Shown here in pieces: positions 35,132 through 64,000 of a DNA stretch of 64,000 nucleotides (its first letter is position 1; each line of letters begins with the position of its first letter). Both the position numbers and the translations under genes were made by a program. The stretch lies in assembly GCA_905250025.1 (NCBI GenBank), contig CAJNOJ010000063.1, forward strand, positions 265,210 through 329,209. Reading direction: 5' to 3'. The notes beneath the pieces are model-generated. The model worked only from the letters and a program-made list of their open reading frames with translations, ran no database searches and was not told the DNA's origin. Source of the stretch: Adineta ricciae (lineage: Eukaryota > Rotifera > Eurotatoria > Adinetida > Adinetidae).

Positions 35132-45437
<10,306 letters not shown>

Positions 45438-45753
45438 TTTTTATTCAGGAAATTTTCTCTATCAATTGATAATCCACATCACGGGTAAAGAGAGAGAGAA
45501 AAAAAAAGAATGATAATTTCTGTTAGAGGGCAAAAATAACCAAGATGGAAAAGACAGAACACTTTTTCTTCTCGTTCTCTCTTGTTTCTTTGATGATGAC
45601 GTCGATAAATGCGACATAGCAAGAGAAAAACATTTTCATGGAGGCGCTCTTCTATCCAATCAGATATGGAGAACACTCGACGATGTATTTATTATTTATT
45701 TCCTTTCACATCACTTGTTGTTTTTAGATTTGAATAGATCCGAAGAAGAGAAA
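45438..45753. promoter_or_regulatory. shared upstream region between NF1 and ATP5PO
   Basis: Only 316 bp separate the divergent start codons. It contains CCAAGATGG at about 45540 (YY1-like, frequent in promoters of mitochondrial genes), GA-rich runs, and an acceptor (gtttttag at about 45727) for a 5' untranslated ATP5PO exon. Bidirectional promoter use is an inference from spacing. Confidence 0.4.
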
Positions 45754-46434
45754 ATGATGGCAAATCGTTTAGTTGGTCTTCGTAATCAAATTGTACGTTC
45801 ATTTAGTACAAGTACAGCACTTCTTCAAGGAACATCAGCAGCACAATCAGCTTTACCAAATCCGACGGAAGGTCCATCATTGGTTGCACCACCAATTCCA
45901 GTTTTCGGTTTAGAAGGTCGATATGCTTCAGCTCTATTTTCCGCTGCATCCAAACAAAAGAAACTCGATCAAATCGATGCTGACTTTCAAAAACTAGATC
46001 GTCTTCTAACCCAAAATAAAGCTATCGGTGATCTTTTTCGTAATCCTGGTGTCACGCGTGAACAACGTATGGCTTTAATCAACGAAATAGGTGTATCCGA
46101 TATGACTCGAGCAACATTAGAAACACTTGTTGATAAGCGAAGAGAAAAAAAATTGGTCAAATTCGTCAGTGTCATGAATCGTTTAATGGCAGCCAATCGA
46201 GGCGAATTAATATGCCGAGTGATCACAGCTAAACCATTGGATGATAAATTACGTAGTGAACTCGACTCTGTACTAAAACAATTTAGCAAAAAAGGCGAAA
46301 AAGTCAATGTTGAAACAACAGTTGATCCATCAATTATGGGAGGAATGATTGTCGAAGTTGGTGATCGATATATTGATATGAGCATTTCAAGCAAAATTAA
46401 AGCTTATACCGATATATTGACAAGCAATGTCTAA
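45754..46434 (+). CDS. ATP5PO: ATP synthase peripheral-stalk subunit OSCP, mitochondrial
   Basis: Single coding exon of 226 codons. The N-terminus (MMANRLVGLRNQIVRSFSTS) is a typical mitochondrial targeting sequence. The mature part matches OSCP: FGLEGRYASALFSAASKQKK, FRNPGVTREQRMALINEIG, KFVSVMNRLMAANRGELIC, and the C-terminal PSIMGGMIVEVGDRYIDMSI with KIKAYTDIL. OSCP joins the F1 head to the peripheral stalk. The start is at the first of two ATGs after the UTR acceptor. A small decayed copy lies at 54640-54710. Confidence 0.95.
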   Translation: MMANRLVGLRNQIVRSFSTSTALLQGTSAAQSALPNPTEGPSLVAPPIPVFGLEGRYASALFSAASKQKKLDQIDADFQKLDRLLTQNKAIGDLFRNPGVTREQRMALINEIGVSDMTRATLETLVDKRREKKLVKFVSVMNRLMAANRGELICRVITAKPLDDKLRSELDSVLKQFSKKGEKVNVETTVDPSIMGGMIVEVGDRYIDMSISSKIKAYTDILTSNV

Positions 46435-46593: not shown

Positions 46594-47594
46594 ATGTTGT
46601 TAAGATCGGCATTGAAAACGAATTTTTCCTCTCAATTATGCAAAATTTTACGTAAATATTTCTCGATGAATTTCCATGGATTTTCATTTTTCCGAATTCG
46701 AATAGGTCGATCCATGTTTATTCAATCTCAAGACACACCAAATCCAAACAGTTTAAAATTTTTACCTGGTCGTTCAGTTCTTGACTCAAATCTCGGCACG
46801 CGAGATTTTCCAAATATTCAATCAGCTTTTACTTCACCACTCGCAAAGTATAAAACAAACTTTTCTTTTGTCAAATCATGTTTCGTTGTTCGTATTAGAC
46901 AATTGTTTCGTATCGAAGGTGTAAAATCCGTCTTTTTGGGTTCAGATTTTATCACAGTAACCAAACAACACGATGATATTCAATGGCAGACATTAAAACC
47001 TGAGATCTATGCAGCGATTATGGATTTCTTCTCAACAAATCTTCCAGTGATCGATGACGATGCCCAACAACCTTCGAGTAGTAAGAGAGTGAGATGAATT
47101 TGTACTAAATTTGAATCTACTAATTCTTTTCAAGGTGTTTCACCCGACGATGATGATACAACTGCAATGATCAAAGAATTGTTGGACACACGGATACGAC
47201 CAACTGTTCAAGAAGATGGTGGAGATATCACTTTTGTGGTAAAATATTTCTCGTCTTAAATTCGTTTTTTCAATTTGATGTATTTGAAAATAGAGATTTG
47301 TTGATGGGATAGTGAAATTGAAGTTACAAGGTGCTTGTACATCATGTCCAAGTTCAATAATTACATTGAAGAATGGTGTTCAAAATATGTTACAATTTTA
47401 TATTCCCGAAGTGAAAGGTGTTGAACAAGTGAGTCAACAAAGAATCGAGAATTTGTATTAAAATATGTTTGATTTAGGTGGAAGACGAAGTCGATAAACT
47501 TGCAAATAAGGAATTTGAAGAATTTGAAGAGAAACTCGAAGAAGAGTTAGAAGAAGAAAAAGATCAAATGAAAAATTCTCCATCAAAAAAATAA
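46594..47594 (+). CDS. NFU1: NFU1 iron-sulfur cluster scaffold, mitochondrial
   Basis: Exons 46594-46847, 46899-47080, 47135-47238, 47294-47428 and 47478-47594; 263 aa. NFU1 delivers [4Fe-4S] clusters to lipoyl synthase and other mitochondrial enzymes. The N-terminus [20 protein letters not shown] fits a targeting peptide. The N-terminal Nfu domain has [18 protein letters not shown] and [15 protein letters not shown]. The C-terminal NifU domain has [16 protein letters not shown] and the cluster-binding CxxC in [18 protein letters not shown]. An acidic Glu/Lys-rich tail follows. It lies 160 bp downstream of ATP5PO on the same strand. Confidence 0.95.
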
Positions 47595-47646: not shown

Positions 47647-49214
47647 ATGTCTTCTAGATTTATATTGATGGAGTCATCACCATCATCATTGCATTATCCT
47701 GATGTTATTAGTCGATCAAGTAATCCAAGTAAATTTTTCTTATTTCTTCATTTCAAATTTCATTTTTTTTCGATTAATAGATTCAAAACAAGCTGCCAGT
47801 AATTATGCAGCGGGACTTAAAATGGCGAGGTAAAACAACTACTCTATTTATATCATATTGAACTGTTGTACTCGACTTTTGTTTAGTCTTTTCTCTGAAC
47901 ATGTTCTCCTTTATCCACTTGATGTTCTCAGACGACAAATTCAAGTAAAACGCCACTATTTCTGTACAATTTTAACTCTCGTTTATGTATAGGTAAATAA
48001 TGAAGCAGTTAAATATCATTTATCTCCTGTTAGTGTCTTTCCTGTTCTTTTTAAAATCTCAGCACAAGTAAAACAAGAAAAGCTTTAATTCTCGTCATTC
48101 ATTCTTCGTCTTTAGGGCCCGTCTTCCCTTTGGAAAGGTGTATTAACATCTATTGCGTATAATGGTTTAGTTGTTGCAACAGATAATTTTCTTCAAGATT
48201 TAATTCCTGTGAAGAAGTAAAATCTTAATGAACTTACCTAACTTTTCTCTTCTTCTTCTTCTTTCTGTTTGCAGAAGTAAACATAATCGCACTCAACAAG
48301 TTCGTCGTGTCGTTCGCAATGTCGCTGTTCGAACGTAAGTCTTCAATTTTTTGCTTTCAACTGATGAAATTCTTCGTTATAGAATATCTTATCTAATTGT
48401 CTCTCCAATCTATTACATAATGTTAATTGAATCAGTACAAAGTGTCAGTGCATCGGATGGAAATTTACTCGATGGAATTCGTGATACATTAGTTCGTTTT
48501 ATTCCTTATTCATCAGCGATCACCGGTGTTCGAAGTAAAATGTTACCAATTTGGAAAATTCTTCTACCAGCCGTTGGTTTAATGACTGGAAGATATGTTT
48601 GTGAGAAGATTTTGTATAAAATCATTTTACCGACATTAAATGCAATTCAAGAAGCTGATCGATATCGAAAAAGAAAACAAAAGCGAATTGCTCAAGTAAG
48701 ATGCGTCATTTTCTTCTTTCTAACTCGAGATTTTGTTTTTTAGTTATCAATGGATGATGATTATGAAACTGAGGAGAATGTTCTTCTCTTCGAAACAACC
48801 TATGCATCGTTGATCGCTCGAATAGCTGCAGGATTCTTCGGACAAGTTTTATTTTATCCTGTTGAAACTATTGTACATCGTCTTCACGTTCAAGGTGTTC
48901 GTGCCATTATTGATAATACAGACACCGGTGTTGGAGTTGTGCCAATCAACTCATCGATTTATTACACTGACTTTTGGTCTTGTTTCAAATCCATCGAAGA
49001 AACAGAAGGAAGTTCTGGTTTATACAAAGGAATCGGTTGTGTTCTTCTTAAATTTTCACTTTTGTATGGTGGAATGTTGTTGGCACATGGTGTGGCAAAG
49101 AAATTCGTTATGGATAATAAACCTCCGTTGACTCCTGCTCCTATCACAACTGCTCCACCATCTTGGCGACACGAACCAGCAACTACAATGACTACTGAAA
49201 GTGGACAATGGTAA
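47647..49214 (+). CDS. SLC25A46: SLC25A46-like mitochondrial outer-membrane carrier
   Basis: Exons 47647-47728, 47781-47829, 47887-47944, 47993-48067, 48116-48216, 48275-48334, 48383-48695 and 48744-49214; 402 aa. SLC25A46 is a divergent carrier-fold protein of the outer mitochondrial membrane, linked to mitochondrial dynamics and lipid transfer. Diagnostic blocks: LKMASLFSEHVLLYPLDVLRR, VNNEAVKYHLSPVSVFPV, QGPSSLWKG, FYPVETIVHRLHVQG and AIIDNTDTGVGVVPIN. It keeps two degenerate PX(D/E) carrier signatures. The C-terminus is Pro/Thr-rich. The first codon could instead be the ATG at 47668. A truncated copy lies at 56352-57265. Confidence 0.92.
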
Positions 49215-51157
49215 ACTAATTGAGAAAGAAATACATCATTTCAATCAATATATTTTTTCCTTCTTTGAATGAACTAAAGACTCCTTTTGAATTTGTATTG
49301 TCATTGTCAATTGCTTATTTGATTGTAGTTGTCAGAAATAAAGAAAAACAAAATCTTTTCTATAAAACAAGCTCTCAGATGATAATAATCTGGGGGAAAA
49401 TATTCTGATTAGGAACTTGTGTTATATTCACCTCCTAACATTCGCGACGTAACGTATCGGCTTTTCAATATGGTCAGTAAACCATTTTCTATGGTACATA
49501 TTTTGTATTTTAGTTATGCGGATTTTGTTTATTTACAGTGAATAGCAGCAGATAGAATTTGCTATTTTGATGAATGACTTATATATTTAACAATTGAAGA
49601 AATTTGTCTTCAATAATTCTCACGAATTGGAGAGTGCGGCTATTCTTTGTGACATTTAGATCAATCTTCTGAAGAAGACATGATTTTTTTAGAAGTAGCT
49701 CACACTTCATTCTCCAGAGAAATAGAGAAAATCAAGTGTCTTGTCCCAAATCTTCTCGTCCAAATAGTAGGAAATGGTAATATAAATCAACTAATGACTC
49801 TCATATATGATTCGTGTGAAAGTTTATCGAACGATCAGATCCATTAAAGATCTAAATTGATGTGTAGGAGTTCAGACTATATTGATTAGAATGGTTTAGT
49901 CTTATCTATAATAAGGATAATACAAGTTTAACGTGATCTTATGTCACATTCTTGTTGGTTTCATTGAAGGAGTTATCGTGACATCTCTATGACTGTGTAT
50001 TTGACAGTCTGTCCTAACAGCACCTATGCCGATATTATTAAAAAATTGATGATCACCGGTTTCTTGAATTTTTCTTTTGATTATGCAGAATTTATTCCGT
50101 GCCGTTCGTCTTTTTTTGTAAGTTTTTACAGTATTTTTCCGAACGCTTACGAAAAGGTCAAGGAGACAATTTGCACAGTTTTGATTTTCGACTTAATTTC
50201 ATACTCGTATATGTACATAAAAAGCCTCTTTTTTCAATATAACTCGAACACTTCACAAACTGAACACTTTGTGTCATGTTGTTTCAAAAACTAAAGTGTC
50301 ATCTTGCCACTTTGATTACGCAAATACAGTGTAAATGGATCCTTTATTTCAGATTTCTGTTAGAAACACTGTTTCCAATGCATTTACCAGACCATCTTCA
50401 CTGCATAAGATTGGTGTGATTAACTAAGCCTCTCTAAATGAATCATACGATTGTTCTTTGAAAGTTAACGAACTAGTTTTACCTTCTTCTCAGGTTCATC
50501 AAAATATTTGACCAGTTGATTGATGGATTGACCTAGCAATTCATAAATATCATCAGCTTGGTGATTCGATTGATTTTCTAGAAAGAGAAAATCAAAAGAG
50601 AATAGGATAATTTGATATGTTAGATGATTTTGTAGGACAAGTAATGGTAAATCAGTAGCAGCGCTGCTGTTGGGTGTGTATTTCAGAGAAAGAACAAGAA
50701 GCAAATCAAGCTTTCATGCAATCCTTACAATGATAGACATTTTCCGAGAATCAACCGAATACAGTATCTGTACGTGGGATGTTCATGTGATTGAGATCAT
50801 GTTACTATTCAGAAGATTTTATAAAAATCAACACTGATGACTTACTTTGATCATTTGCACATCGTAAACTCGGTGATCTTTATCGTCCAACAACCGATGA
50901 TATTTTGAACTATATGAAACATTTATTCCCATTTCTCCGAATTAAACTGGAAGTTTCAACGTAATACATTGCCGATCTTTCCTCATTCAGAACATTCATT
51001 ATGGGTCTACAATTTTCATAGAAGACAGCGACGAAGTTATTCATTGTTGATTCAATAGCAGATTTACTCTTGTTTACAATTCAGATATGTTGTCACTCTA
51101 TCTAATTACTATTAATCCAACATGCTCTATTTCTCGTACATTGGTTTATTCATGATA
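49215..51157. other. about 1.9 kb with no complete gene; two possible exon fragments
   Basis: Two short stretches look formerly coding. One is on the plus strand at about 50864-50963 (FAHRKLGDLYRPTTDDILNY, then MKHLFPFLRIKLEVST, to a stop). The other is on the minus strand at about 50486-50580 (NQSNHQADDIYELLGQSINQ, then LVKYFDEPEKK, between an acceptor and a donor). Neither can be extended into a gene or assigned to a family. Confidence 0.35.
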
Positions 51158-53945: not shown

Positions 53946-53967
53946 TTGTCTGTCTCAAAATATTTCA

Positions 53968-54474
53968 CCACAAAAGTGATATCTCCACCATCTTCTTGAA
54001 CAGTTGGTCGTATTCGCGTGTCCAACAATTCTTTGATCATCGCAGTTGTTGTATCATCATTATCGGGTGAAACACATTCAAGAGTACTATTTGGAGGCTG
54101 TTGGGCATCGTCATCGATCACTGGAAGATTTGTTGAGAAAAAAATCCATAATCGCTGCATAAATCTCAGGTTTTAATGTGTGCCATTGAATATCATCGTG
54201 TTGTTTGGTTACTGTGATAAAATCTGAGCCCAGAAAGACGGATTTAACACCTTCGATACGAAACAATTGTCTAATGCGAAAACTGAAACATGAATTGTTG
54301 AGGGAAATGTTCGTTTTCTACTTTATGAGTGGTGAAATGAAAGCTGATTGAATGTTTGGGAAATCTCGCGTGCCGAGATTTGTGTCGAGAACTGATCGAC
54401 CAGGCAGAAATTTCAAACTATTTGAATCTGGTGTGTCTTGAGATTGAATAAACATGGATCGACCTATTCGAGTT
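53968..54474 (-). pseudogene. NFU1 pseudogene (inverted, 3' exons lost)
   Basis: Matches NFU1 exons 1-3 in inverted orientation: [55 protein letters not shown], then [21 protein letters not shown] one-base expansion of a T run (GGATTTTTTTCTC versus GGATTTCTTCTC) breaks the frame, one intron is lost, and the exon with the CxxC cluster ligands is absent. No functional scaffold can result. Confidence 0.88.
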
Positions 54475-54639
54475 CGGGAAATCAACGAGTGTTTCGTATG
54501 TTGATCGAGATTCACAAGACAGAAGTAATTCATAGATAAGAGTCATGCATTGTACACGCGATAGTATGCGAATTGCGAAAAAGATTACCGACGGCTTTGT
54601 TTTATCTTAGGAGGCGGTTTACTTTTTAGAAATCAACAT

Positions 54640-56156: not shown

Positions 56157-56351
56157 TACGACACGACAAACGCTAGAATGTATCTGTATTCGTTTGTTGA
56201 CTACGAGATGGACGAAAGAGATAGAAAAAGGAATGAATGTACGCATCGTCCCTATTGTTTTCTGTTTCTCTCGTTCTTTTCGTGATCTACAGACGAATTC
56301 AGATACAATTCAACGAATTTTCCTAACTTATTTCTTCTTCTGTCTCTGCAG

Positions 56352-57265
56352 AAGTAAACACAATCGTACCCAACAAGTTCGCAATGTCGCTATTCGAACG
56401 TATATCTCTCGCTTTATTGTTTCACTTAATGAAATTCTCCGTTATAGAATATCTTATCTTCTGTCTCTCCAATCTATTACATAATGTTAATTGAATCAGT
56501 GCATCGGATGGAAATTTACTCGATGGAATTCGTGATACATTAGTTCGTTTTATTCCTTATTCATCAGCGATCACCGGTGTTCGAAGTAAAATGTTACCAA
56601 TCTGGAAAATTCTTCTACCAGCTGTTGGTTTAATGACTGGAAGATATGTTTGTGAGAAGATTTTGTATAAAATTATTTTACCGACATTGAATGCAATTCA
56701 AGAAGCTGATCGATATCGAAAAAGAAAACAAAAGCGAATTGCTCAAGTAAGATGCGTCATTTTCTTCTTTCTAACTCGAGATTTTGTTGTTTAGTTATCG
56801 ATGGATGATGATTATGAAACCGAAGAAAATGTTCTTCTCTTCGAAACAACCTATGCATCGTTGGTCGCTCGAATAGCTGCAGGATTCTTCGGACAAGTTT
56901 TATTTTATCCTGTTGAAACTATTGTACATCGTCTTCACGTTCAAGGTGTTCGTGCCATTATTGATAATACAGACACCGGTGTTGGAGTTGTGCCAATCAA
57001 CTCATCGATTTATTACACTGACTTTTGGTCTTGTTTCAAATCCATCGAAGAAACAGAAGGAAGTTCTGGTTTATACAAAGGAATCGGTTGTGTTCTTCTC
57101 AAATTTTCACTTTTGTATGGTGGAATGTTGTTGGCACATGGTGTGGCAAAGAAATTCGTTATGGATAATAAACCTCCGTTGACTCCTGCTCCTATCACAA
57201 CTGCTCCACCACCTTGGCGACACGAACCAGCAACTACAATGACTACTGAAAATGGGCAATGGTAA
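56352..57265 (+). pseudogene. SLC25A46 pseudogene (5' half missing)
   Basis: Begins at the equivalent of exon 6 and retains exons 6-8. The last exon (56795-57265) is almost identical to the intact gene and still open. Exon 6 has lost a few codons (the QQVRRVV block). In exon 7 a one-base deletion (TTATCTTCTGTC versus TTATCTAATTGTC) and a 12-nt deletion break the frame. The first five exons, holding the initial carrier repeat, are absent. The very high identity at the 3' end contrasts with the damaged 5' end. Confidence 0.88.
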
Positions 57266-57490
57266 TCTTATTGAGAAAGAAATACACCATTTCGATCTTC
57301 GAATGAACTAAACACTTCTTTTGAATCTGTACTGTCATTGTCAATTACTTATTTGATTGTAGTTGTCAGAAATAAACAAAAACAAAATCTTTTTCTACAA
57401 CGCACTCTCAATGAAAGTAATGTAGTATTCAAGAAAGATTTTCGGTAGAGAGGATTTTTGTTTCAATAATGATAAATTAACAAAGAAAGA

Positions 57491-59840
57491 CTAGAAATGA
57501 TCTTGACAAGAACATAGCCCATTTCGATGGAAATGATGGATACGATTCGCGTCTCGTATTATGATTTCACACTGCCGAATTTGAGCAATCATTTTTGTAG
57601 CACGATCTAAGAATGAAAAAAGTTTGGGGAAATATTTTAATTGAATAATTTCTTACGACAATCTCCGCAAACACGGAGATTTTTTGTAATTTGAATGAAA
57701 GATGGTTGAGATTGTTGGATGAAGTTGAACGCGATAGCGAGTTTTTCACTATGTCCACATAGTACAGATTCGACACTTTCTCCATCTTTAATCGGTCGAG
57801 TTATCCAACTTGAATCAAACTCAAAGCCATGCTGCTTCAATTCATTCGACAAACGATCAAGTTCAGCATAAATTTCGTTTGTTTGAGGATGTGAACGATC
57901 ATGAGCTTTGAACCTCTTCAGCAATAAAAGAAACAAACAAAAATACTGTTTGAAGATTTACAAGAAATCTTTGCTTACCACAATTTTATCGCCGACTTCT
58001 GTCCATGATAATCCGACCTTGACGTTATTGCCGAATTGTTGTATTCGTTTTAATCGTTCTTCTTCAGCCGATTGATAATCTCCCACAGAAGAATAAGTAT
58101 TTGACAAAAGAATAGAGGCAGAAATCAACGCTGATTTTTTCTCTGGAAATAAATTTTTCATTCGTTTGAACACTTTTTCAGAACGAACGATCTGACGATG
58201 ATTACGAGCACCGGCCAACAGCGCCACTTTGAAAATCAGACGGTTTTGTACATTTGATCAATGATTTTCATCAAATAAAATCACAACTTACTGTACATTC
58301 CCAAAAAAGGCATATTTGACACTTCATAATCATCAATTAATTCCTGTGCTTCGTCAAATAATTCCATACGACTAAGACAATCAACCTGGAATTTACATAT
58401 AAAATATTCGTTTTTTTCTAATATTCGAAATGAACAAACCATTGCAGTAACGATAACATCGGTCTTTCTTGGAATTTTCTTGAAGATAGTTCGAGCTTGG
58501 TCAATAAGTCCTGAATGTGAACATGCATTTAAAATACATATATGTGAGACGGAATCGTGAAGATTATTAGGTATTTTTTCGTAGATATCGAATGCTTCGT
58601 ATCCCATTCCATTCCTTGTATACGCATTGACTAAAAAGTGACACATTATTGAATAATAAAACGAATTATCTTGTCATTACTCATAGAAGTATAAGTGAAA
58701 AGATCAGGTTGAGTTATGGATTGAAATATCTTCTCAGCTTGTTGAATATCACTTGATTTACCCTTTGGAAACAAATGAATTGTAGAAAATGGTAGTAATT
58801 TACAATATCATTACCAACATATCAATCAAAGCATTTCGCAATTGAAGATTATTTTGTAGATGTGAAATCTGATGAAGAATTCTTCTTGAAGTTTGTTGCA
58901 TACCAATCTGAGCACATGCACCAACTAATGCCAATGCCATGATTAGATTAATTTGAATATTCTTCTGTTTTGCTTCTTCAAACATCGATAAACATTCGAA
59001 TGGTTGATGATTGATTTTATAACCATTCATCATTATTCCGCAGAAAAATGAATCGAAAATTTGGATTTGTCGAAAGAATAATTCAGCATCTTCTACTTGA
59101 CCAAATTTCATCAACATATCAATTGCTGAACTGAGAAGATTCCGATGGCGAAGGAAAGATTTTTGTAGTTTGTTAAATGCGCGATTTCCAATTTGAATTG
59201 CATGTTCATTGCAAAGTTTAGCACAAGCATTGAATACAATCGTGATGATTACCTCATTGGCTTCTATCGACATTTTCTCATACAATTCAAGAACTTTTTC
59301 TGCCATGTTATTCGACATATAACCTAAGATTGAAAACGGATTTTTCTGACGAAATTACGGGAAAAACGAACCTTTGAGCATGGCACCATACATAAATACA
59401 GTTTTATTCTCAATACTTGAAAAGATTTTATGTGCCTCATCGATTCTACGACATTGCACTAAAGGAAAAAAATCAGTAGTCGACAATACTTTAGTTTATG
59501 TTTCAAGATTGATTTTACTATAAAAGTGAATTAATGATGTCAGCAGAAATGGATCTTTTAATGATTGTATTGATAATTGTCTATGAATATAAATTCCACG
59601 TTGGTAATTCATTAATTTTGTAGCTGCTTTCAAAGCTAATGTATGAGTGATATTTGTAGCTATTGACTGATTTTTATCAAATAAATTAAGTGCTTCTTTA
59701 TATTGTTGAGAATCGATTAGATTCTTCATATTCCAATTTAATTTAATCGATAATGATGATATGTTGGAAACATATCGATAGTGTTTCTTTTCCATATTCA
59801 ACATATATCGAACAAGACTTAAGCAAATATTGTTCAACAT
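57491..59840 (-). CDS. DYW-type pentatricopeptide repeat (PPR) protein, plant RNA-editing-factor-like
   Basis: Nine exons (59519-59840, 59372-59458, 58815-59323, 58681-58762, 58440-58630, 58292-58385, 57979-58226, 57657-57915, 57491-57606) give 635 aa in one frame. PPR units of 31-36 aa run through most of the protein (CRRIDEAHKIFSSIENKTVF, DIQQAEKIFQSITQPDLFTY, TSMINAYTRNGMGYEAFDIY). E/E+-like motifs follow (MALLAGARNHRQ, ILLSNTYSSVGDYQSAEEER, GLSWTEVGDKI). The DYW cytidine-deaminase domain is complete: HP in DRSHPQTNEIY, HxE and CxxC zinc site in HSEKLAIAFNF and VCGDC, second site HHFHRNGLCSCQDHF. It ends DHF instead of DYW. In plants such proteins edit C to U in organellar RNA. The N-terminus (MLNNICLSLVRYMLNMEKKH) may target mitochondria. 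Confidence 0.93.
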
Positions 59841-61047
59841 GATCTGAAAGAAATGGACAATTTTTTGTTTTCGTCATCATTCTTTTCTCATCTGATGGAA
59901 ATTTACAACTCACTCACTGATTTTCTTTTTTTATAATGGCTGTGCACAACCATTCGCAGGAATATCTATCCCAATAAAATACATCTTTATAGATGGCACT
60001 ACAGACGGGAATTGACAATTTTAAGATGATTACAATCCACGTTCAAAAGCAATGTCTTTTGAGAAATTCGGTAAAGATTTCGAACATACATTCGAAAGAA
60101 TATGTAAATGTACGATTCATGCGTAAACGATACAATACTGTCGAATCTTTTTGAAAATGAATAAAGTATGTAAAGGGAACAAATCGAATTTACCGTTTGG
60201 TATTCATCAAAGTAAACACAATGATCATTGATTATCGTCTCATATCTCAAGTATCAACTGGAGAAACAAAGTGTGTCAATTATTCAGTACATTCTGAATC
60301 TTCGTCTCGATCAGAAAAAAGTTACACTTTGAATACTTTTTTGTTTCAAAACGTTGATTAGCAATTAAAATACGACTCAGATCATTTCCCTGTAGTTTGT
60401 TTCTAATTATTAATTTCGATGAAACCAAATGAAGACCAAACTTTTGGTGAATGAGTCGAGAAAGACATTTGAAAAGCTTCTATCGATTTTGTTATTCTCA
60501 GGTTCTTGTAACAGATGTTTTATACATGCGAATGCTTGACCCTTTTACTCCTAATAAAAAACATCTGACAGTAAATAACAATATTGTAAACGCTATTATT
60601 TTCGTTTATTTTTCTACAAAATAAATTTGATATAATATTAAACACATAGAGGACATATCTACTGGTATTTCTCTGCTCAGAAAAAGTTTATGAAGCATGG
60701 TGATTCAATGTTATTTGCGTTTTATTGTACGAGCAAAGTCAGTGAATAACAACAATCGAATGCAATCTTATTTTAACTATGTTATTACTAGAAATTAATC
60801 ATGTTATACGCGAATTTTTTTCATTCGTCCGTTAAAACTTTATTTAGTGACTTCGTTGATCACATATTTTCTTTTGGAATAAAAGACTCGACGATTGTGA
60901 AAATACCCACATCTTGTTCGGTTTTCTCCAACAAACAACTTTGTTTATATACTTATATAAGATTACACATTTCACATACATTTTATTATTGTATCGTATG
61001 ACTTTTTTGAAAGGGTTTTTGTTTTCATCGCATAAAATGTGTTTCAG
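59841..61047. other. about 1.2 kb intergenic between divergent PPR and cullin genes
   Basis: AT-rich, with short frames only. The first cullin exon and its start codon must lie in the right part of this stretch, but I could not place them. Confidence 0.45.
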
Positions 61048-64000
61048 ATCAGAATCTCCAACACGGCTCGTATGGAGAAAAATTATATCCCAAACACACT
61101 CTCAGATTTGATCGATTTGTTTTGGAATTCTTATGGATCTCGTACCGAGATGACTTTCTGAAATTATATACGTAAGTTTCTTGTCTTTATTACTTCATTT
61201 CTATTTATGATTTACAGTGAAATATACACATATCTTACAACTGCAAGGGCTGTACTTGATCGATCACTTAGAAGCCGGACGAATCAGCTTCATGATACCA
61301 GTTGGATCTCAGGTGAAAGATTATATGTATTTACAGAAAATTATATTCGAAATAAACTTGACAAAGTTTCAAAAGTAAGATTCACTGTGTTGAAATCAAT
61401 ATGCGTTTACGAAAGAATTATCGCTAATATGTAGAGAACCTTACGTTTATTTCATTTTCTTCGAGGATATTAACAGCCAACCTGCCGATAATATTCTTCA
61501 ATATTATAAAAGGTCTCGGGACAAACATCGAATATTATTTGGAACACTCAATGGTGCTTATAACTATTTTAATCGTCACTGGGTTAGAGATGCGTATGAC
61601 AATGGTAGAGATGTATGTGAGATTCATGTGGTATGTATTTTACTTGTCATGCTATTATGTACAGTTCTTCATCTGAATAGCTATGCACGAAAATATGGTC
61701 GGAAGTTGTGTTGAAACCGTTGTTTTCTCGAATAATTGGAAATTTAACGACATTTATGAACAGTTATAAGAACCGTACTTTCACTGATACCAATTTGATC
61801 CAGTGCATGAAGAAATTATTTGGCAGTGATATAGATTGGTCTCAACCTCCTTCCTTTGGATTCGACTTTCTTTCGACTAATATAAACAACACAGATATGC
61901 CAGATATTCACCATTTGATGGTAACGGTCGAAAAGGAGCTTTTGCGAACAACAGAAGATTTTTATCAGAAGAAACCGATTCCTCCTTCTTTCGAATCAAA
62001 TGATCAATTATTTAATTACATAAAATCAGCAAGTGTACTTTCATTGATATAATATAAATATATTATTAGCTGATTTTAGATAGTAGAATATGTTGATGAT
62101 GAAATACAACAAGCCAACGTTTGTTTATTAATCGAAATATCAACATTGAAGAAGTTACAGGATTTATTAGAAGGAATATTTTTTCCACCAAATGTTGTCG
62201 ATATTATCGTGGATAAACTACGAAAACTTTTGTTAGACGATAACAACTACAACGGTAAATTTGATAAAAGTGATTTCGTTTGTTTATGAATAGTTTATTG
62301 ATTGTCTTACAGAATTATCGAGACAATTCGAATCAATTCGTCGATTAAAGATATTGAAAAATGAATTATTGAAATTAATTGAAGAGCACGTTTACGAAAA
62401 AGGTCGTCATGAAATTGAATCTATCTATACCGACAAATCAATAAATGAGACTATCGTAAGCGATCTCTCTTATTTTCTTTCCTATCTATAAATTTCATAT
62501 TTAGGATCCTTCATTTTATATCGAAACATTGATTGATCTTCAGACGAAATATCAGGCATTGATTCAAAAAATTCTCGCAAATGATGCAGCTTGTATTGCT
62601 GCTTGTAATAGTGTACAAATATGAATATTTCATTTTCAATTTCACTTATATTCAGAATATTTTTTTAAGGGTTGTGCAAAATTTGCTAATCAAAATGTTT
62701 TAACGGAAAAGTCGGATATGACGACAAAATCAGAAGTATTGTTATGCCAATACTGCGATCTTCTGTTGAAGAAAGGGTTCATATTTATATGATTTCGCAA
62801 AATTTCATACGAACTCCTTGTTGATTTTCTAGAAAAACAGCGACTACGGATGATAATTGGAATCATAAACAAAAAACTATTCTCGTAAGACTTTCATTGA
62901 TACTTTACTATGGTTGATGTTGATTTCTTAGATTGTTTTCGATTTTATCGAATCTAAAGATCTTTTCATGCGAATATATCAAAAGAAACTCTGCAAACGT
63001 TTACTTAATAAATCAAGTGTATCGCATGAGTACGAAACATCGTTAATTTCAACATTCAAAGTAAAACCCATTCGTCTTTCATCAACAAATACTCGATAAT
63101 TCATTCGCAGGATAAATGTGGTCATGAATATACATCAAAAATTGAACAAATGATGAAAGATATTCGTATAAGTGAAGATTTAACTAAGGAGTATAAAGAG
63201 AATGTAGAGAAGAATTCGATCTACGATTCAGAGAAATTCTCTGTCATGGTATTTATGACAAATTACTGGCCATTATCTCCTTTACCGAATGTGATTTTAC
63301 CAACCGAAGTCAGAGTTTTCATTATAAATATTTTCCTTTTGAATCGTTTTTTATTTTAATTTAGTTAAAATCAATGTTTGATGATTTCACGAAATTTTAT
63401 CTTGGAAAGTATAATGGTCGAAAGTTAACGTTACTTCATCAACATTCACATGGAGAACTTCGTATGAAAATTTCGGGACAAACTTATCAATTACTAGTAG
63501 GATAATATCTGTATGAGATGACTGAAATCGAAAATATCATTCTCTTCGTCAAGGTTTCAACATATCAAATGATGGTATTATTTTTATTCAATGACAAGCC
63601 AAATTGGACAGTCGAACAAATTCAAGATCGAACACAGATTGAATCAAAATTGTTACCAGACATTTTATCAATTTTATCAAACAAAAATATCTTAATCTCT
63701 GAGAATGGTTTTGATTCAACCAGTGTAATTCGACTAACTGACAATTTCACCAGGTAAATATTTTCTCAAGTAAAAATAAGAAAAGAAATGTTTGTTTCAA
63801 GTGATAAGTTTCGAGTGAATTTGAATATTCCATTGGAATTGAATAAAGAGAAAAAGTCCAATGATCTATCTCGAACAATTGATGAAGAACGTCGAATGAA
63901 AATTCAAGCTGCTCTTGTTCGAATTATGAAGAAGGAAAAGATATTGAAATATTCATTATTAATTGAACAAATCAGAACACAATTTCAACCAGAAGTTTCG
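61048..64000 (+). CDS. cullin (CUL1-like), 3' end beyond the window
   Basis: Exons 61048-61171, 61218-61374, 61466-61630, 61681-62032, 62084-62254, 62313-62455, 62515-62612, 62670-62776, 62833-62884, 62932-63060, 63111-63308, 63365-63496, 63554-63753 and 63802 onward. Cullins scaffold RING ubiquitin ligases. Matches follow the CUL1 order: LYTEIYTYLTTARAV, LNGAYNYFNRHWVRDAYDNG, FDFIESKDLFMRIYQKKLCK, KCGHEYTSKIEQMMKD, YWPLSPLPNVILPTE, KYNGRKLTLLHQHSHGEL, and the winged-helix AALVRIMKKEKILKYSLLIE carrying the conserved neddylation Lys region. The sequence is rather divergent from animal CUL1, including the N-terminal repeats that bind Skp1-type adaptors. One acceptor (62083) was chosen by frame. 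The start codon was not found. Confidence 0.85.

Follow-up and report, generated by a model that had tools for sequence, protein, structure and literature searches.

The closest described systems are the DYW editing factors of land plants, represented among solved structures by the Arabidopsis DYW structure 7o4e and the synthetic protein 9kfx, which share with the protein analysed here the order of PLS array, E1, E2, E+ and DYW domain as well as the HxE, CxxCH and terminal CxC motifs. In comparison with those factors, the present protein ends in DHF and its PG box (PGxSWIEV) reads VGLSWTEV, in which G-x-S-W is kept and the P is missing, while the family to which it belongs has repeated units with short P motifs (31-32 aa) that mostly carry G at position 5, introns at the triplet borders and longer arrays formed via exon duplication. 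DYW-PPR proteins have already been reported from Adineta ricciae and Philodina roseola, in a rotifer clade grouped with Naegleria (PMC4202320, citing a 2013 survey), and the statement in an earlier note on this DNA that the class was known outside plants, rotifers included, agrees with that source as far as it was accessible. The published bdelloid proteins are of the same class and very probably of the same family as the gene described below, and the accessible part of that paper describes no gene structure, copy number or exon duplication for them. Lineage-specific expansion outside plants is likewise found in Naegleria gruberi (11 DYW-PPR proteins) and Acrasis kona (12), where the proteins outnumber the known editing sites and where, according to the same part of the source, the retention of editing factors above known site numbers in non-plants is called unexplained (PMC4202320); the present genome has 81 DYW loci, and the triplet exon reported below is not described for those families in the accessible text. 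An animal family of 81 loci, some members of which are clearly selected, makes this question testable in an animal. Clustered birth-and-death expansion of RNA-binding PPR genes is also known from the plant restorer-of-fertility-like PPR clusters, whose members are of the P class and lack a DYW domain.

The window, as we call the whole stretch of 64,000 nt of Adineta ricciae DNA that was analysed, is part of contig C63 of an assembly of 130.5 Mb in 1033 contigs. Its DYW gene lies on the minus strand, with the ATG at 59840 and the stop ending at 57491, exactly as first proposed, and its nine exons (322, 87, 509, 82, 191, 94, 248, 259 and 116 nt; 1908 nt together) encode 635 aa in a frame that is open and free of internal stops. 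All eight introns (60, 48, 52, 50, 54, 65, 63 and 50 nt) follow GT-AG, and the initial description of a complete DYW-type PPR gene with nine exons holds to the exact coordinates. Splice-aware alignment returns the identical eight introns, which amounts to self-consistency, both queries having been built on the window protein; the model is supported more strongly because relatives are split at the same residues. Exon 1 (59519-59840) encodes the possible mitochondrial presequence, motifs P1 and L1 and the start of S1, and the 29-aa exon 2 (59372-59458, phase 1/1) encodes the remainder of S1 and the start of P2; an exon of 29 aa at this place recurs in 17 of the 18 models compared and is absent from L010. 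Intron 2 (59324-59371, phase 1) is the site at which relatives carry extra triplet exons and the window gene carries none. It is followed by exon 3 (58815-59323), in which the terminal triplet unit (remainder of P2, L2, S2 and start of P3) is fused to P3, L3 and part of S3. The remainder of S3 and the start of P4 are encoded by exon 4 (58681-58762), the remainder of P4, L4 and the start of S4 by exon 5 (58440-58630), and the remainder of S4 with the start of E1 by exon 6 (58292-58385). Exon 7 (57979-58226) covers E1/E2 and a PG-box-like start of E+, exon 8 (57657-57915) covers E+ and the DYW deaminase with HSE (57753-57745) and CGDC, and exon 9 (57491-57606) completes the deaminase with HHFHRNGLCSC (57538-57506), the C-terminus QDHF and the stop.

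Pfam profiles recognize PPR (1.8e-33), PPR_2 (2.5e-21) and DYW_deaminase (3.8e-32; 110.4 bits, cut-off 24) in the window protein, together with an E+ motif at 24.4 bits, just above its cut-off of 24, while E1-E2 are seen only via the full-length alignment to 9kfx. This synthetic PPR-DYW protein is also the best match among solved-structure sequences (E 5.4e-100, window residues 36-634), followed by 7o4e at the C-terminus (E 5e-33). The array consists of 12 PPR motifs in four P-L-S triplets, with borders set by eye on the alignments and lengths of 30-35 aa for P, 31-37 aa for L and 31 aa for S (4/4). In the deaminase, HSE occupies residues 566-568, CGDCH residues 594-598 and HHFHRNGLCSC residues 621-631, and HSE, C-x-D-C-H and CSC are invariant in 11/11 sequences of an alignment (A1) of nine genes of the present genome and two plant-type sequences. 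The catalytic residues had been described as intact, and HxE, CxxCH and the terminal CxC are indeed all in place; the last of these belongs to the second zinc site, which has a role in zinc binding. The C-terminal D-Y-W tripeptide, which varies and is not catalytic, is replaced by DHF in the window protein and by DYF, DHF, DFF, DNF or EHF across the 14 undisrupted models of the family. Classified by its sequence, the window protein is a DYW-type PLS-class PPR protein, apart from the DYW letters and the PG-box P.

Our preferred reading, to which we assign a probability of roughly 0.72, is that the gene encodes a PLS-class DYW PPR protein of a large, partly selected and partly decaying host family with a triplet exon, and that it acts as a mitochondrial C-to-U editor; mitochondrial editing is the likeliest activity that we infer for it. 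The protein would be imported into mitochondria, its PPR array would lie along a short stretch of RNA, and its DYW domain would deaminate the cytidine four bases 3' of the position that the last S motif recognizes, which is the editing geometry of plants, so that each added triplet exon would lengthen the footprint by three bases. A mitochondrial presequence is plausible rather than proven: the first 30 residues hold four K/R and one D/E, a composition taken without a control set, and the only moderate character of this presequence counts against mitochondrial editing. Across the family, again without a control set, the 30 residues from the first listed Met contain at least three K/R in 20/20 models and at most one D/E in 13/20, with K/R and D/E counts of 6 and 0 in L015, L020, L021 and L023 and of 5 and 0 in L011.

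The window gene is one of many. A search of the genome with the Pfam DYW_deaminase profile gave 127 exon matches, which group into 81 DYW loci on 48 contigs when same-strand matches separated by under 800 nt are joined, such counts being lower bounds; 62 loci are near-complete (from profile position 16 or lower through 86 or higher of 93). Two or more loci occur on 18 contigs, with clusters of six on C170, five on C461 and four each on C311 and C322. The expectation that the gene edits 'one or a few' mitochondrial transcripts is not supported in that form, the gene being one of 81 loci, and this number seems far above the need of a small animal mtDNA, which also speaks against the editing explanation. 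Splice-aware alignment of 40 fetched stretches plus the window gene yielded 41 models, covering about half of the 81 loci and at most 40 genes, because L022 is the front part of the L026 gene; the models of L009, L015, L018, L025, L026, L028 and the window gene are partly circular, looped queries having been built from them, and the DYW match at C155:206330 has a poor model only. Counted strictly, 14 models are undisrupted, a class that takes in the window gene, the outlier L011 and also L017, truncated where its contig ends; frameshifts or stops disrupt 16 more, and the other 11 are fragments, in some cases for no other reason than that the fetched stretch or the contig runs out. One locus stands somewhat apart: at C131:199455-200219 a DYW match and the best PPR_2 match of the genome lie 0.4 kb apart in one 284-aa open frame, and this locus is possibly intronless and a second acquisition.

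Selection was gauged by dN/dS (Nei-Gojobori, 20 pairs), which is 0.17-0.34 in the nine pairs whose members are both free of disruption; for the window gene and L028 it is 0.17, at a saturated dS of 2.25. The eleven pairs with a disrupted member give 0.13, 0.21, 0.22, 0.24, 0.31, 0.31, 0.33, 0.52, 0.57, 0.63 and 0.94, with both members disrupted in L020/L023 (0.21), L033/L034 (0.52), L024/L027 (0.63) and L042/L043 (0.94). The values below 0.35 in 7/11 of these pairs indicate that several of the disrupted models are recent losses of function, modelling mistakes or products of sequencing errors. All 14 undisrupted models have HxE and CxxC, and the same text patterns recover HxE in 12/16 and CxxC in 15/16 disrupted ones, so that their presence alone proves little; as both dN/dS and HxE overlap between the classes, neither separates working from broken copies well.

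Further evidence on selection and origin comes from the neighbourhood. The 3' part of a mitochondrial-carrier gene, presumably SLC25A46, lies tail to tail with the DYW gene on the plus strand (56795-57265; Pfam Mito_carr 4.7e-10), and the context is host-like in that a homologous segment elsewhere in the genome, on contig C309, carries a collinear copy of the DYW gene beside the same carrier gene. The two segments share 89% DNA identity over 6.2 kb in two pieces (window 56332-62489) and 99% protein identity in the carrier segment. With exon-only queries, exon 3 of the C309 DYW gene reaches 90% protein and 92% DNA identity and has no stops, which supports the earlier proposal that the gene is still selected; the roughly 40 nucleotide and 17 amino-acid differences across these 509 nt, derived from rounded figures, would correspond to a dN/dS near 0.2, as an estimate from those figures rather than a computation from sequence. 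A description of the C309 copy as 69-83% identical with stops was rejected, as the long queries behind it spanned introns and gave 83-98% for the window gene itself. A functionless remnant of horizontal transfer, now decaying, would be in keeping with the frameshifts or stops in 16/41 models and the frameshift carried by 2/11 fragments, but it sits poorly with the 635 open codons and eight clean introns of the window gene, with the stop-free C309 exon and with the low dN/dS of the undisrupted pairs, and we regard it as very improbable. Contamination of the assembly by a plant or protist, an idea suggested by a class typical of land plants, is hardly credible in view of the collinear C309 copy with its shared neighbour, the spread of the family over 48 contigs and the introns of the models, which are mostly 45-80 nt. 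As a separate matter, pattern scans based on A1 for a viral or prokaryotic source returned 10 viral and 21 genome contig matches, none of which was confirmed by tblastn, with patterns (two short peptides) that reach close relatives only.

The 11 other undisrupted full-length models, L011 excluded, have introns at the residues and in the phases of the eight found in the window gene. All eight are present in 10 of these 11, L009 being without the last, and the seventh intron of L018 is modelled one residue off. Introns common to relatives in this way are an old feature of the DYW family in this genome. The introns had been singled out as short, host-like and unusual; short and host-like they are, but the set is common to the family and not peculiar to the window gene. 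Some may be inherited from a donor, since moss PPR genes are intron-rich, three quarters of them containing introns according to the part of the source at hand (PMC9459714). The most divergent model, L011 (C45:184500-192000), shares 34% identity with the window gene in 305 aligned columns, sits on a long branch and has mostly different introns, with two positions common to the window gene by eye. A FastTree phylogeny built on the C-terminal 310 residues (23 models plus two plant-type sequences) places L028 and the broken L039 beside the window gene at a support of 0.997, with weak branching inside this trio (0.317), and over the same residues the models except L011 are 46-64% identical to the window gene and 30-42% identical to the synthetic plant-type sequence.

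In many relatives, extra exons of 99 or 100 aa stand between exon 2 and the long exon 3, each flanked by phase-1 introns at the same place of a P motif (after ...YGAMMKG) and each equivalent to one P-L-S triplet of 31-32, 37 and 31 residues by segmentation by eye. The shortest form, without an extra triplet exon, is shared by the window gene, L015, L020, L021, L023 and L030; L012, L018, L019, L026, L032 and L034 have one, L028 has two, and L025 and L031 have three each. L016 has three extra triplets, two of them fused without introns to the long exon, and L009 carries two copies of a two-exon block (99 and 167-168 aa), repeating with a period of 892 nt. Two unit queries gave 66 and 121 matches genome-wide at 141 distinct places, a number in which the opening part of the long terminal exon is counted too, the window gene being one example; 66/66 and 119/121 of the matches are stop-free. 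These units form 66 chains, of which 35 hold two or more units and the longest holds six. Among the 75 spacings between units, 66 fall at 335-364 nt, five at 294-300 nt (fused), three at 210-211 nt (partial) and one at 320 nt. As the spacings are evenly distributed modulo 3 (26, 25 and 24), most neighbouring units lie in different frames and are joinable only by splicing. Two arrays were seen away from DYW matches: at C242:152950-155976 a long triplet-exon array, perhaps an array-only relative, lies on a contig with no DYW match, and at C113:307048-310703 an array without a DYW match contains one unit whose residues 46-100 and 1-49 seem to lie about 2 kb apart, as after an insertion.

Traces of the duplication itself are clearest in L028, where Tandem Repeats Finder detects two copies (80%) of a 364-nt unit that combines a 300-nt exon with a 64-nt intron, with exons 72% and introns 89% identical and an intron-pair z of 14.9 against shuffles. 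A spacing of exactly 364 nt occurs 12 times, on C159, C113, C142 and C311, and the same period is seen in L040. Comparisons of introns within L009, L016, L025 and L031 gave weak scores only (z 4-6), none of them between neighbouring unit introns, and L028 alone among the five genes compared shows clearly duplicated introns. The unit sequences extend the picture to other genes. Units 1 and 2 of L028 are mutual nearest neighbours at 64% (next best 35% and 42%, respectively), as are units 2 and 3 of L016 at 62% (next 52-56%); units 1 and 2 of L009 share 58%, compared with 36-41% to other genes, its near copy L010 excepted, and unit 1 of L025 is 58% identical to its own unit 2 and 51% to the next gene, the near-identical L031 excepted. 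The nearest relatives of L016 unit 1 and L025 unit 3 are units of other genes, which indicates that some duplications predate gene splits. These sequence comparisons show that the triplet exon has been duplicated in tandem, with the frame kept, inside at least some genes of the family.

A more tentative proposal, to which we would give rather less than even odds, is that the array is a modular gene in which one symmetric exon encodes one P-L-S triplet and reads three bases, with new specificities arising via exon duplication and possibly via alternative splicing; exon gain, loss or skipping would then change the length and phase of the footprint and leave the frame intact. The triplet exon itself exemplifies the natural growth of an RNA-binding array by one reading unit at a time, of use both for understanding repeat-array evolution and for the design of PPR editors, two of which are reported, in the part of the source consulted, to work in human cells (PMC9508816). 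In the literature, neither triplet exons nor a DYW family of such size in an animal is described among the matches listed, on the basis of titles and abstract starts and with most subscription papers and preprints outside the scope, and we provisionally regard the triplet exon arrangement as new.

The RNA-reading positions bear on what the arrays recognize. At position 5 and the last position, the P motifs of the window protein carry N/T (P1), G/N (P2), G/N (P3) and T/D (P4), and the S motifs carry T/T (S1), S/D (S2), N/D (S3) and T/N (S4). In the plant PPR code, S/D, N/D, T/D and T/N read G, U, G and A, from which a target with G at -10, U at -7, G at -6 and A at -4 relative to the edited C is predicted, the other motifs giving no clear letter. 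Position 5 of the P motif is G in 31/40 repeated units, which does not fit the plant code and suggests that these units recognize bases in another way or are hardly selective. A canonical S3 pair (N/D, T/D, N/N or T/N) occurs in 10/16 models; the pair differs among paralogues and is non-canonical in the remaining six, a pattern that fits different targets only in part. By entropy, position 5 of the S motif ranks 15th and position 5 of the L motif 21st among the 99 unit columns, with the other four code columns between 36th and 86th; in the S3-P4 stretch, the three code columns rank 13th, 18th and 25th of 40, the P4-last column there being one off. A search for positive selection at the code positions gave no signal in 13 unit pairs (12/52 against 352/1183 changed; Fisher p 0.35), and this result, like the prevalence of G at position 5 and the incomplete canonical match of S3, counts against the editing explanation.

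The poor fit of position 5 to the plant code would also suit a PPR-DYW family that bound mitochondrial RNA mostly without editing it, stabilizing or cleaving transcripts or helping in their processing, with the deaminase being structural or serving rare sites. Other roles have been suggested, in the portion of the source available, for Acrasis and Naegleria, where DYW proteins exceed editing sites (12 and 2, and 11 and 2, respectively; PMC4202320). We nevertheless find a largely non-editing family unlikely, given the retention of HxE and CxxC in every undisrupted model and the low overall dN/dS, a whole-protein and not a per-domain value. Less likely again, and in our judgement improbable, is a fast-turnover family directed against selfish or foreign RNA (transcripts of transposons or viruses, or rogue mitochondrial ones), with a turnover like that of the plant restorer-of-fertility-like PPR genes: the clusters of loci, the many broken copies and the variation of array length among genes would suit it, but the code positions are without excess change and the N-termini resemble those of mitochondrial proteins.

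Several further features of the region and of the assembly were recorded. On contig C55 (at least 471 kb), COX1 with 11 TGA codons read through (C55:466242-467585) and cytochrome b with seven (C55:471050-471601) lie 5 kb apart, the pair being mitochondrial DNA that was either inserted into a nuclear contig or joined to it. Within the window, long minus-strand ORFs at 42344-44299, 40868-42181 and 35975-36697 (651, 437 and 240 aa) have no Pfam match at 0.001. The carrier gene region is doubled in direct orientation 8 kb apart (48312-49359 and 56377-57393), with 91% DNA identity over about 1.1 kb and 98% in a 300-nt core, and an inverted repeat accompanies the carrier copies (46688-47249 and 53958-54481; 343 nt at 90% and 101 nt at 93%). 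A dispersed element of ~200 nt at about 55600-55807 matches 32 other places, in full or in part, at 76-97% identity, with some copies arranged in tandem. Finally, a gene for the ATP synthase OSCP subunit lies at 45517-46434 (9.1e-43), another mitochondrial-protein gene near the DYW gene.
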